Shown here in pieces: positions 15,979 to 21,381 of a stretch of 21,381 nucleotides of DNA; within the stretch, counting starts at the first letter, position 1; each line of letters opens with the position of its first letter. Both the position numbers and the translations under genes were made by a program. The notes beneath the pieces were generated by a model. The model saw only the letters and a list, made by a program, of their open reading frames with translations. It had not been told where the DNA came from and ran no database searches. This DNA comes from a virus, in the IMG/VR virus record IMGVR_UViG_3300025598_000208, positions 1 to 21,381 of that record; one strand, given 5' to 3'.

Positions 15979-16701
15979 TTATTGATTTTGCTCATCTTCT
16001 TTGTTTTTTGAGATAGGGGGGCTACTTTCAAGTGGTGATTGGATGTCTGGAATAGTATGCAAGGTATTAAAGGGACTCCTACTCTCTAATAGAGGGGGTA
16101 GGGGGTCGCTGATCTGCCCGCTAGGATCGCCAATCCCCGCACCTTCTATTTCTCGCATAAGGTTTTGAATGTCTAAGTCTTCGTCAATAGTTCGCGAATT
16201 ATCGGCTAGGGCATTTTTAAGCATGGCCAATAGGTCGTCCTTGGCCTTGTCGCTATCCTTAACGACCTTAGTCTCTGATCTATGAATGAATGAGTCCACA
16301 CCGGCAATAGTTCCCAATGCTTTCAAGGCATTGACCCTTACTGATGGGTTAGAGTCCTCAGCTATGGCCTCGACTGTAAGCCTATGAGCTACTAATGCCC
16401 TTATTTGTCCGGCTGTATGCGATTTCTCCCATTCAATCGCTAACTTAATCGCTTCCGTTGTAGCCTGAATATCCCCTCGCTTGCTCATCTCATGCCCTCG
16501 CTTTGCTATTGTCCGACTATTGCCCTTACTGTTATATGCTTTCCGATACGCACCGGCTTTAGTCTCTCCCCGTGCTAATCCCTCGCAATATTTGAATTGC
16601 TTACTTGTGAGTGCTGATTTATTAACATTCAATAGCTCATACATAGGGGCTTGATCTAAGGCCTCATTGATTTGCTTTTTACTTAATCTTGGGATTCTCA
16701 T
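15979..16701 (-). CDS. terS: Terminase small subunit
   Basis: 240 codons starting MRIPRLSKKQINEALDQAPM. Residues about 30-90 have the Terminase_2-type HTH pattern: ALTSKQFKYCEGLARGETKA, then GAYRKAYNSKGNSRTIAKRG and HEMSKRGDIQATTEAIKLAI. The middle is helical (AHRLTVEAIAEDSNPSVRVN, ALKALGTIAGVDSF) and could be the oligomerisation core. The last ~50 residues are Pro/Ser-rich and disordered. It recognises the packaging site and loads the large subunit. Five tiny genes separate it from terL, which is unusual. There is no strong Shine-Dalgarno. It is the first leftward gene after the divergent control region with the LexA boxes about 50-85 bases upstream. Confidence 0.8.
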   Translation of the reverse strand: MRIPRLSKKQINEALDQAPMYELLNVNKSALTSKQFKYCEGLARGETKAGAYRKAYNSKGNSRTIAKRGHEMSKRGDIQATTEAIKLAIEWEKSHTAGQIRALVAHRLTVEAIAEDSNPSVRVNALKALGTIAGVDSFIHRSETKVVKDSDKAKDDLLAMLKNALADNSRTIDEDLDIQNLMREIEGAGIGDPSGQISDPLPPLLESRSPFNTLHTIPDIQSPLESSPPISKNKEDEQNQ

Positions 16702-17260: not shown

Positions 17261-17557
17261 ATGACTAATCTATATGCTCAAGAGGCTTTATCCCGTGCTA
17301 GAGGCAATACAAGCGGGCTTAACTATCAGGCGATATTTGCGGGCTTTATGGCTAGAGGTATTCCTTCCAGCGAGATCATTCCCCGTGAGAATGTTTTAAC
17401 TTATAAAGCATGGCAAGCAATAGGCCGGCAAGTCAAAAAAGGTGAAAAGGGGGTCAAGGTTATTACATGGATCAGATATACCGATAAAACCGGCCAAGAA
17501 GTCGTTAAACCACAATCCGCTTATGTATTTCACATCACACAGACTGAAAGGGTATAA
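17261..17557 (+). CDS. ArdC N-terminal-like antirestriction protein
   Basis: 98 codons starting MTNLYAQEALSRARGNTSGL. ENVLTYKAWQAIGRQVKKGE then KGVKVITWI and SAYVFHITQTERV match the core of the ArdC N-terminal domain: a Thr/aromatic start to the helix, a Gly-x-x-Val-x-x-Gly-Glu-Lys-Gly turn, and a strand ending in F-x-(V/I)-x-Q-T. In ArdC that domain binds single-stranded DNA; the C-terminal metallopeptidase part is absent here, and the front of the domain is shorter. Its early position fits a role in protecting incoming DNA from restriction, which is inference. AAAGG precedes the ATG. Confidence 0.6.
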   Translation: MTNLYAQEALSRARGNTSGLNYQAIFAGFMARGIPSSEIIPRENVLTYKAWQAIGRQVKKGEKGVKVITWIRYTDKTGQEVVKPQSAYVFHITQTERV

Positions 17558-19236: not shown

Positions 19237-19260
19237 AAACCCTTAGCAATAAGGGTTTTG
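19237..19260 (+). terminator. Stem-loop terminator 1
   Basis: AAACCCTTA / TAAGGGTTT, a 9-bp stem, with a GCAA tetraloop (19246-19249), followed by T and GG. It is 11 bases after the last gene of early block 1. The U-run is short, so it is likely weaker than the next stem. Confidence 0.6.
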
Positions 19261-19289: not shown

Positions 19290-19329
19290 GTAGTATGAGG
19301 CTAAATTATTGACAGTAGTATGAGGCTAA
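19290..19329 (+). repeat. 15-bp direct repeat, possible promoter or operator
   Basis: GTAGTATGAGGCTAA occurs at 19290-19304 and again at 19315-19329, a period of 25 bases, with TTGACA between them at 19309-19314. It lies between the tandem terminators and the strong ribosome site of the next gene, where a new promoter would be expected. No -10 fits TTGACA at 16-18 bases, so the repeat is more likely an activator or phage-specific promoter site. Confidence 0.5.
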
Positions 19330-19350: not shown

Positions 19351-19899
19351 ATGGGCTGGACAGGAATGCAACCCCCCTATCACGGGGATAAAAAAAGATG
19401 GTTAGAGGAGGAGTTTAATCAGACCGGTGAAGTTGGGACTAATCCCTCATGGACATTGACCGACTTATCTATTCGTGGCAATACGGCTTACGGGATTTAT
19501 ACAATGGTTAGGCCTGATGGCAGTTGGCATAGTGCTGGCATTGTGATTCTTATGTCATTTAGTGCTGATCAATGGCGATATAAGGATATGACTGAAGAAA
19601 TGATGCCATATTACTTTGATGCCCCGATATCCATGATTAAGAAATTGGACGCCCTTAATCCACAAGTTGAGGGTAATGCTAGGTTATGGCGGGATAAATG
19701 CTTAGAGCAGAAAGCTAAGGTATCCGTGCCTGATGGTTTGACTATCCGCTTTACACGGCCTTTAGATTTCCGGTCATTCAAAGAAGATACATTCAAAATA
19801 CATAAAGAAGGCCGTAAAACTTTTTTTATTGCGGGCAACGGAATGAAGTGCCGGATTACAAAATGGCAAGACCGAGAATATGAGGTGCAAAATGCCTAA
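19351..19899 (+). CDS. MGW-type phage protein, unknown
   Basis: 182 codons starting MGWTGMQPPYHGDKKRWLEE, with AGAGGAG 7 bases upstream. The pattern TNPSWTLTDLSIRGNTAYGI, YTMVRPDGSWHSAGIVILMS, DQWRYKDMTEEMMPYYFDAP and MIKKLDALNPQVEGNARLWR reads as an alpha/beta protein. Short proteins beginning MGW recur in phages and plasmids and some are grouped as DUF6927; I recall that only loosely. It is the first and largest gene of early block 2. The C-terminal residues QNA overlap the next start in the same AAAATGCC junction found between the following genes. Confidence 0.65.
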   Translation: MGWTGMQPPYHGDKKRWLEEEFNQTGEVGTNPSWTLTDLSIRGNTAYGIYTMVRPDGSWHSAGIVILMSFSADQWRYKDMTEEMMPYYFDAPISMIKKLDALNPQVEGNARLWRDKCLEQKAKVSVPDGLTIRFTRPLDFRSFKEDTFKIHKEGRKTFFIAGNGMKCRITKWQDREYEVQNA

Positions 19900-20203
19900 G
19901 AAATTATTTGAACTTACCCCGCAAGTTTGTGGTAATCCGGATTACGGACAAGACCCTAATCAACCGCCTTATGGAGTAGATATTGTCAAAATTACCGCCC
20001 ACAATTTTGATTTATTACTTAAAAGAGTAAGAGAATGGCAATACGAAAATGATATTGGTGGTGGAAATTGGATGAATCCAGCAGTTTATTTTAATGGTAA
20101 AGAAGTAGGTTATATGTCTTACAACGGAAAAGTTTGGGCTGATAAAAGCTGGACACCCAATACTAAACAAATTTATTTCAAAGAGGAGAATGAAAATGCC
20201 TAG
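19892..20203 (+). CDS. Small Met-Pro protein 1, unknown
   Basis: 103 codons from ATG 19892, chosen over an upstream in-frame ATG at 19880 because GAGGTG lies at the usual distance and the MP start matches the following genes. It begins MPKKLFELTPQVCGNPDYGQ and has an N-terminal part with NQPPYGVDIVKITAHNFDLL, then EWQYENDIGGGNWMNPAVYF and YMSYNGKVWADKSW. It is rich in aromatics and Asn/Gly. The end NENA* overlaps the next start in GAAAATGCC. No family recognised. It overlaps the previous gene by 8 bases. Confidence 0.6.
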   Translation: MPKKLFELTPQVCGNPDYGQDPNQPPYGVDIVKITAHNFDLLLKRVREWQYENDIGGGNWMNPAVYFNGKEVGYMSYNGKVWADKSWTPNTKQIYFKEENENA

Positions 20204-20402
20204 ATATTTAGTTTATGTAGATTGTGCTGATAAATCAGTAATTGATGACGCTTTCGAGCATAGTATTGACAATGGCGATACTGATGAATACTACACGCTT
20301 ACCGAAGATGGATCACCTATTGTATTTGAACATGGACAAGTAAGCGATATTGATTTTTGTAATGGTTTAGCTATCCGGTGTGCCGGAATAACGGAGGAAT
20401 GA
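20196..20402 (+). CDS. Small Met-Pro protein 2, unknown
   Basis: 68 codons from ATG 20196; the ATG at 20190 is too close to the AGAGGAG ribosome site, which is 7 bases from 20196. It starts MPRYLVYVDCADKSVIDDAF and is acidic, with DNGDTDEYYTLTEDGSPIVF in the middle and CNGLAIRCAGITEE at the end. It begins inside the previous gene's C-terminal codons (GAAAATGCC junction). Weakly similar in opening and size to the following MPK proteins, so it may be a distant paralogue. Confidence 0.55.
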   Translation: MPRYLVYVDCADKSVIDDAFEHSIDNGDTDEYYTLTEDGSPIVFEHGQVSDIDFCNGLAIRCAGITEE

Positions 20403-20404
20403 AA

Positions 20405-20590
20405 ATGCCTAAATTTATTATCAACGCAAGCGAAGAAGTTTTTTATAGACAAGTAGTAGAGGCCAATTCAAAAGACGATTTGAAAGCTAAGTTAGCAAAA
20501 GGCGATTTTGATTTTGATGGTTTTCAGGTATCGGATTCAGGACAGTTTAATATTGATTCAATAGAAGAGATAGAAAATGCCGAAATTTGA
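20405..20590 (+). CDS. Small Met-Pro protein 3, DpnD/PcfM-like
   Basis: 61 codons from ATG 20405 with GGAGG 7 bases upstream. It starts MPKFIINASEEVFYRQVVEA, then NSKDDLKAKLAKGDFDFDGF and ends EEIENAEI. A strand, helix, strand layout with E-V-F-Y...V-V-E-A-N-S matches the small DpnD/PcfM-type family seen in phages and plasmids. The family name is from memory and the evidence is the short motif and size. It shares EEIENA with protein 5 and NA or ENA with others. Confidence 0.55.
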   Translation: MPKFIINASEEVFYRQVVEANSKDDLKAKLAKGDFDFDGFQVSDSGQFNIDSIEEIENAEI

Positions 20591-20756
20591 AGTAGTAATT
20601 TCTACTCATGCAATTTATACAGTCGAGGCCGAAGGGTATCAAGACGCTGAAGATTTAGCATGGGATTTATTTGATCGTGGGGATTTATCTGATCCCCATT
20701 GTGCTGAAGTAATTAAATTGGAGGAAAAAAATGCCCAAGTATCAAGTTTATGTTGA
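20577..20756 (+). CDS. Small Met-Pro protein 4, DpnD/PcfM-like
   Basis: 59 codons from ATG 20577, which lies 14 bases inside the previous gene, in the same AAAATGCC junction. It starts MPKFEVVISTHAIYTVEAEG, followed by YQDAEDLAWDLFDRGDLSDP and VIKLEEKNAQVSSLC. Strand, helix, strand pattern as in the neighbours, with VEAEG..DAEDLA in place of VEANS..DL. It overlaps the next gene by 26 bases. It is probably a paralogue of proteins 3 and 5. Confidence 0.55.
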   Translation: MPKFEVVISTHAIYTVEAEGYQDAEDLAWDLFDRGDLSDPHCAEVIKLEEKNAQVSSLC

Positions 20757-20910
20757 AGAAGTATATCGTGGATATGTAGAAATTGAAGCAAACTCACCAA
20801 GAGAGGCCGAAGAAATTGCAACAGAAAAGACTTGCTCAGGTGAAATAAATCCCGTCCAAGATTTTGATGGTAATACTTTTATTGATGCAGAGGAGATTGA
20901 AAATGCCTAA
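20731..20910 (+). CDS. Small Met-Pro protein 5, DpnD/PcfM-like
   Basis: 59 codons from ATG 20731, with GGAGG 5-8 bases upstream inside protein 4. It starts MPKYQVYVEEVYRGYVEIEA, then NSPREAEEIATEKTCSGEIN and ends FDGNTFIDAEEIENA. This is the clearest member of the family: V-E-I-E-A-N-S..EAEEIA followed by a G-x-I turn. Its C-terminal EIENA overlaps the start of the next gene in GAAAATGCC. Function unknown. Confidence 0.6.
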   Translation: MPKYQVYVEEVYRGYVEIEANSPREAEEIATEKTCSGEINPVQDFDGNTFIDAEEIENA

Positions 20911-21381
20911 TTGGTGCAATAACAACTTAGTTTTAACCCATAAAGACCCCGCTATGATGGAAAAAGCATTACAGGCTTGGAATGAGGATAAATTTTTATC
21001 TACCCTAGTGCCTGAGCCGGACTATACGAAGGTAAAAGTAAAACATACATTTCCTATGAATTATTCTACCGGTGAATTAAAAACAGAATTCGTTGATCCC
21101 GAACAAGCATGGTGGGATTGGCGAGTGCAGAATTGGGGAACAAAGTGGGATATTGGTGCTGGATCAGATGGTGCAAGGGTAGAAAAATTAAGAAAAGATG
21201 GAGCATTAGAAGTATTTTTTTGCTCCGCTTGGTCTCCTCCTACTGAGGCCTACACAACGCTAGTAGATATGGGTTTTGATGTAAGTGCTACTTATTACGA
21301 AGGCGGTTGCGGGTTTTGTGGAGAATTTGTAGATGGCCAAGATAATTGCTTTGAAATCAAAGGTAATTCTGATTGGGTTAG
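20903..21381 (+). CDS. DUF1281/Api92-like protein, 3' end outside window
   Basis: The frame opens at ATG 20903 and is open to the last base, so it is truncated by the window (159 complete codons). It begins MPNWCNNNLVLTHKDPAMME, continues with LVPEPDYTKVKV, then WWDWRVQNWGTKWDIGAGSD, SAWSPPTEAYTTLVDMGF and YYEGGCGFCGEF. The order MPNWC-N-L, VPxP, W-NWGTKW, AWSPP, YYExG-GF-G is that of the DUF1281 / Api92-like family, found on phages and plasmids, function unknown; a ferredoxin-like fold has been assigned to the Api92 C-terminus. It overlaps the previous gene by 8 bases. Confidence 0.75.
   Translation, partial: MPNWCNNNLVLTHKDPAMMEKALQAWNEDKFLSTLVPEPDYTKVKVKHTFPMNYSTGELKTEFVDPEQAWWDWRVQNWGTKWDIGAGSDGARVEKLRKDGALEVFFCSAWSPPTEAYTTLVDMGFDVSATYYEGGCGFCGEFVDGQDNCFEIKGNSDWV

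Follow-up and report, generated by a model that had tools for sequence, protein, structure and literature searches.

Gene cassettes of the integron type carry an attC recombination site behind each gene, with an integrase nearby. Several arrangements in which small genes are chained together or shuffled at short recurrent sequences have also been described in phages. The nin region of lambda and P22 is a "chain of interlinked genes" joined by ATGA (Kroger and Hobom, 1982, as cited in PMC8022706), and in the passages of that source its genes are largely nonessential and their content varies among lambdoid phages. Cluster K mycobacteriophages carry Start-Associated Sequences (SAS), a 13-bp ribosome-site repeat, GGGATAGGAGCCC. 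It typically lies 3-7 bp 5' of the start codon and is found at many small non-structural genes that are unrelated to one another; most copies share one orientation, and ATG is the favored start. The passages on the SAS mention neither start or stop codons within it nor cassette exchange with breakpoints at it (PMC3203893). In T4-type phages, PeSL promoter/stem-loop elements, which form a promoter-terminator between genes, have been proposed as mediators of modular shuffling (Arbiol, 2010; Comeau, 2014; as cited in PMC4503421). Finally, lambdoid boundary sequences and relaxed homologous recombination by phage recombinases allow modules to be exchanged where the sequence on either side of them is shared over a short length or imperfectly, and De Paepe et al. 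have weighed limited homology against illegitimate recombination in this regard (PMC3945230).

The locus described here lies on IMGVR_UViG_3300025598_000208, a 21,381-base IMG/VR phage contig that was analyzed over its whole length and is hereafter called the window. Its terminase and portal genes are on the minus strand. The plus strand holds a series of small genes that begins at about 17.1 kb and extends to the window end. Within that series, seven genes (g0 to g6) form an array block that is probably an early operon. We consider it probable that this block is a hypervariable operon of single-gene cassettes, in which a standard connector renders the genes interchangeable and translationally coupled and exchange likely proceeds by short homology. 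Like nin, the array is a chain of tightly packed small genes with overlapping stop and start codons; unlike nin, with its 4-bp ATGA, the overlap is 8 bp (ATGCCTAA) and sits within a longer shared block at which single-gene breakpoints are visible, and the phage group is a different one. Like the SAS, the shared block recurs in one orientation at the starts of unrelated small non-structural genes, but its junction consensus, GAGGAGnnnGAAAATGCCTAA, is not the SAS sequence. Gene content shuffles at a recurrent short element here, as is proposed for PeSL, although the connector is located inside overlapping coding sequence and shows no unusual fold at any of the six junctions of the window. In contrast to lambdoid boundary sequences, the connector is at the same time a translation signal and recurs at consecutive genes of one genome. 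The array works like nin, SAS, PeSL and boundary sequences, but on the features compared it belongs to none of these kinds. The sequence-only reading knew of no description of such an arrangement. Related kinds do exist, as the nin ATGA chain, SAS and PeSL demonstrate; for the 8-bp version, our full-text literature search, with many subscription papers beyond its scope, found no paper.

The closest cultured terminases are those of 023Pt_psg01, Pelagibacter phage HTVC027P and DSL-LC04, at 57-60% identity. These phages carry one to three copies each of the motif AAAATGCC in the genome stretches examined, and the overlaps of DSL-LC04 are mostly of 4 bp. A nucleotide search of phage isolates with the array block returned no match.

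The array and its connector

The motif AAAATGCC occurs on the plus strand of the window at 19889, 20193, 20402, 20574, 20728 and 20900 and nowhere else on that strand, with a single minus-strand copy at 16210. This total of seven compares with 1.78 expected, and none of 100 shuffled sequences reached seven. The start codons that it supplies, at 19892, 20196, 20405, 20577, 20731 and 20903, are the best-supported starts of consecutive genes, each preceded by Shine-Dalgarno-like sequence. The claim that six consecutive genes begin at one shared motif, made from the letters alone, accordingly stands exactly as it was put.

All genes and connectors of the array are on the plus strand. Its left anchor is g0 (19351..19899), which encodes 182 aa with a DUF6927 domain (Pfam PF21992, E=2.5e-11) and the C-terminus EVQNA-stop, and which is retained at the left end in L005, L007, L008, L009, L011 and L012. 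Connector 1 (gaggtgcaaaATGCCTAA, 19875..19899), of a type that also links g0 to g4 in L005, joins it to g1 by a ribosome-binding site and an 8-bp stop/start overlap. The 103-aa cassette g1 (19892..20203), of which L016 and L017 hold a near-identical copy, is followed by connector 2 (gaggagaatgaaaATGCCTAG, 20179..20203), again with an 8-bp overlap, and by the 68-aa cassette g2 (20196..20402). At connector 3 (ggaggaatgaaaATGCCTAA, 20388..20412), the TGA stop of g2 lies 2 nt before the start codon of g3 (20405..20590, 61 aa). Connector 4 (agagatagaaaATGCCGAA, 20560..20584) leads to g4 (20577..20756, 59 aa), connector 5 (ggaggaaaaaaATGCCCAA, 20714..20738) to g5 (20731..20910, 59 aa) and connector 6 (gaggagattgaaaATGCCTAA, 20886..20910), by an 8-bp overlap, to g6 (20903..21381). 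The last gene encodes at least 159 aa and continues past the window end; its Api92-like (DUF1281_C) product matches phrog_20518 (E=8e-22) and, below cut-off, PF18406 (E=0.0023).

Three of the proteins had been taken for paralogues, and this is borne out for g3, g4 and g5, which are DpnD/PcfM-like and mutually related (pairwise local-alignment z-scores 4.9-6.4; g3 scores 4.9 and 6.4 against g4 and g5). By the same measure g2 is unrelated to them (z -0.4 to 2.7), and g0, g1 and g6 each fall in a separate family. The match of g5 to DpnD/PcfM (PF14207) is sub-threshold (E=4e-4, 20.7 bits against a cut-off of 25 bits). An AlphaFold2 model of g5 (mean pLDDT 83.6) predicts a beta-alpha-beta arrangement whose last strand comprises residues 44-56, which would place the Asn-Ala end outside the predicted fold; Foldseek found no significant match to this model in the PDB.

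An Asn-Ala ending of the preceding protein, usually with its stop, had been proposed for most junctions, and here the picture is mixed. Asn-Ala-stop is present at three of the six (g0/g1, g1/g2 and g5/g6, through the 8-bp overlap ATGCCTAA/G). At two more, Asn-Ala is read through: the codon after ATG is CCG at g3/g4 and CCC at g4/g5, which removes the stop and extends the upstream frame into the tails NAEI-stop and NAQVSSLC-stop, with overlaps of 14 and 26 bp, respectively. At g2/g3 the upstream gene terminates ahead of the motif. In both L005 and L016, g4 starts with ATGCCTAAA, which suggests that the window copy of g4 has drifted from the overlap.

Over 169 junctions, in a set biased toward the motif inasmuch as loci from L094 on were found by it, the connector consensus is GAGGAG-N3-GAAAATGCCTAA, and the upstream protein has the C-terminus NA at 95 of them and DA at 19. 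The connector is common to unrelated genes and carries ribosome site, start and stop; its ribosome site is itself coding sequence of the upstream gene, encoding a Glu-Glu tail. Neighboring connectors of the window share 8-15 exact bases, with a mean of 17 of 25 bases alike. RNA folding at the six window junctions was in no case stronger than in shuffled sequence (z -0.97 to 1.16), and none gave a promoter- or terminator-like match.

Such a connector would do three jobs at once: it would encode a constant upstream tail, E-E-x-x-N-A-stop, furnish the next gene with its ribosome site and ATG, and set the frame relation between the two through the 8-bp stop/start overlap. A gene with this tail and an ATGCCTA start would therefore fit beside any other with frames and coupling intact. 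To judge from the overlap, translation of neighboring genes may be coupled; termination-reinitiation is known for overlapping gene pairs (PMC6728339).

Some further features were noted in and around such arrays. Just 5' of g0, AGTATGAGGCTAA is present in two exact copies 25 bp apart (19292-19304 and 19317-19329), preceded by a possible AAACCCTTAGCAATAAGGGTTTT hairpin at about 19237-19259 that was spotted by eye; the pair may indicate where a transcription unit of the array itself begins. The same gene-dense plus-strand region encodes, at 17261-17557, a 98-aa protein matching the N-terminal domain of the anti-restriction factor ArdC (PF08401, E=5.8e-9). Elsewhere, a second start-associated motif, AACTGCTAGGAG (L018-L024, L170, L221-L223), and a third, ACGAGGC(T/C)AA(A/T)(A/T), in the form of ACGAGGCTAAAA or ACGAGGCCAAAA (L100, L124, L225, L226, L231), precede genes that mostly do not overlap the gene before them but are separated from it by a gap, as though these motifs marked the opening gene of every sub-operon. 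A connector class with a 4-bp overlap, of the form GGAGGTAGCATGA or close to it and with KEVA at the end of the upstream protein, occurs in L100 (reverse complement, ~2750-2770), L170, L222 and L223, and these connectors also switch neighbors. The g1 family may have either an 8-bp or a 4-bp connector at its 3' end.

Searches by motif alone were poorly productive. Scans of cellular genomes yielded mostly chance or repeat matches, and GAAAATGCYTAR twice at cassette spacing matched eight GTDB loci, none of them an array. Among ten viral contigs with a triple AAAATGCC, five were not such arrays (L095, L096, L097, L099, L101), most of them lying inside single long genes or repeats. The motif search also turned up an unrelated cyanobacterial, interspersed-repeat-like array in Microcoleus (L213:564-1487), where copies of GGAAAATGCCTAAAACC encode MPKTLSGIET and GKCLKPYQGLK in different frames.

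Gene order and breakpoints in relatives

Between the anchors, g0 on the left and MLRW-MVERL on the right, gene content differs among related contigs. The window order is g0-g1-g2-g3-g4-g5-g6. In L005, whose core is 92% identical, the order is g0-g4-MLKF-MPKFIVY-MLRW; in L006 and L007 (93%), g0-g4'-MLNKK-g6-g2-g3'-MLRW; in L105 (90%), MPMY-MPKYDED-g6-MLRW; and in L179 (91%), g4-like-MLRKD-MLSREE-MSKF-MLDID-MLRW. The cores of L005, L007, L179 and L105 are 90-94% identical, yet their arrays differ. The more distant L016 and L017 (core ~74%, 73.6%) have MKRY-g4-MSDYKE-g1-g6-MLRW. A fixed gene order, which would have spoken against shuffling at the junction, is clearly not what the arrays of L005, L007 and L016 display.

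Moreover, in these same three loci the change of gene content, with breakpoints at AAAATGCC as had been anticipated, is seen at base resolution. The alignment to L005 passes through g0 and resumes directly at g4 across the motif. In L007, g2 is placed after g6; the g2 protein of L006/L007 is 100% identical to that of the window, and the DNA segment 20179-20464 is 93.7% identical. Between the window and L016, g1 is 98.4% identical over 321 bp, with 4 of 309 CDS positions differing, and both breakpoints of this identity lie inside AAAATGCC(TA), beyond which the sequences are unrelated. The g4 and g6 copies of L016/L017 are ~90% identical (90.6% for g4 in L016), compared with 73.6% for the core. 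Likewise, L011 and L012 differ by the replacement of one 60-aa cassette by one 94-aa cassette between connectors. In the sequences compared, single-gene gain, loss and movement therefore have their boundaries at the connector.

Protein retrieval of g1 relatives extends this to ~14 further contigs, in which the neighbors vary on both sides. Within this family the connector class can change even for one gene, from 8 to 4 bp: the relatives in L023 and L011 begin MKQF or MRFY with a 4-bp junction, and the window gene begins MPKK with the connector, so the start has changed with its setting. In no other locus that was retrieved are both sides of any of the six window junctions conserved.

The same tendency is evident in aggregate. 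Across the 14 loci retrieved through protein similarity, 61% of alignment ends on the left and 51% on the right are no more than 20 nt away from a gene start, versus 15% and 17% for random positions. Recent exchanges were defined as genes of at least 80% amino-acid identity with a different neighbor, and the tests based on them are indicative only, given automatic gene calls and events with common ancestry. Where the downstream neighbor of an 8-bp junction had been exchanged (11 distinct events), identity fell from ~0.8-0.9 to ~0.3 just after ATGCCTAA; where the upstream neighbor had been exchanged (18 events), it climbed from ~0.33, through an island of 0.6-0.74 over the ribosome site, and reached 0.96 at the ATG. 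The ratio of switched to kept neighbors was 29:27 for 8-bp junctions versus 25:59 for all other classes (Fisher p=0.013, the events not being independent); measured against the 4-bp ATGA class alone (14:22), turnover was not clearly higher (p=0.29).

Alternative explanations and the mode of exchange

The recurrence of the motif could reflect no more than a bias in ribosome sites or codons, a possibility that the enrichment of AAAATGCC and of CCT contradicts. Of the 63 eight-bp junctions in the 14 loci retrieved through protein similarity alone, 22 carry AAAATGCC, versus 4 of 333 other ATG starts. Array junctions in these loci comprise 61 of 8 bp and 32 of 4 bp, the latter class being absent from the window block. 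CCT accounts for 4.5% of the NNT codons of these genes, and for 8 of the 100 NNT second codons that follow other starts, but it is the second codon at 31 of 60 8-bp junctions. The 8-bp overlap dictates nothing beyond a T as the last base of codon 2, and neither codon bias nor overlap geometry explains the preference. The CCT rows are related to one another, with many contributed by the g6 (MPNW) family, so p-values overstate the case; the effect is still large.

Another alternative dispenses with homology altogether. Illegitimate recombination would strike anywhere, only intact and coupled genes would survive, and the connector would be a coupling optimum. This predicts boundaries at gene starts and ends, is in keeping with the exchange of ATGA and gapped junctions in the same phages, and has a footing in the debate over limited homology and illegitimate recombination (PMC3945230). 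It leaves the CC/CCT preference after ATG without an explanation, however, and free joining should mix overlaps and gaps, yet 29 distinct 8-to-8 switches retain the 8-bp register. The Asn-Ala tail is equally unaccounted for, and we know of no translation signal that requires one. Selection acting alone is in our judgment possible but rather unlikely. Common descent, whereby tandem duplicates of one DpnD/PcfM-like ancestor simply inherited the junction, would suit the kinship of g3, g4 and g5 and the abundance in arrays of two related clusters (37 and 21 members); it becomes very improbable once the families of g0, g1, g2, g6, MLRW, MLNWED, MSDYKE and MLNKK are considered, all of which fall outside both clusters and have the connector, and once the g1 family is seen to change its start between 4-bp junction and connector. 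Chimeric joining at short repeats during metagenome assembly deserves mention inasmuch as every relative is a metagenome contig and the window's own order is known from one contig only. Against this, the shared stretches of 8-15 bp fall below the usual word length of assemblers, those arrays that were inspected have unbroken frames and overlaps, and L006 and L007, L016 and L017, and L019 and L021 have arrays that are 100% identical in independent metagenomes and so are not assembly accidents, which leaves this explanation scarcely credible.

We therefore return to the reading of the block as an operon of interchangeable single-gene cassettes. The ~10-25 bp of sequence shared among connectors could serve as exchange homology, by annealing between phages and by slippage deletion between neighboring copies. 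The 8-15 bases of exact identity between neighboring window connectors are at or below the requirement of classical homologous recombination; they could be used when a phage recombinase anneals strands or when slippage deletes a cassette. Short-homology exchange at the connector is likely, and the breakpoint positions are consistent with it, although selection for intact genes would leave boundaries at the same place. That the connector is a dedicated exchange site, on which a recombination protein of phage or host acts by recognition or annealing, and the array a phage counterpart of the integron, with single coupled genes passing between phage lineages at a constant overlapping start/stop signal, we regard as doubtful. 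As to attC-type sites, the window junctions, on a contig that is incomplete, show no strong fold as RNA. Searches for RecT and for DNA polymerase A found neither in 12 records, which are fragments without replication genes and so carry no information on recombinase content.

Implications for accessory gene exchange in phages

How small accessory genes are shuffled without breakage is a long-standing question, with limited homology on one side and random joining followed by selection on the other. An exchange unit of one gene with a defined joint of 20-25 bp, occurring several times per genome, makes this question directly testable. The constant E-E-x-x-N-A tails, as a by-product of the joint, caution against reading such tails as functional domains. 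Lastly, the genes borne by these arrays are good candidates for functions in host takeover or counter-defence.
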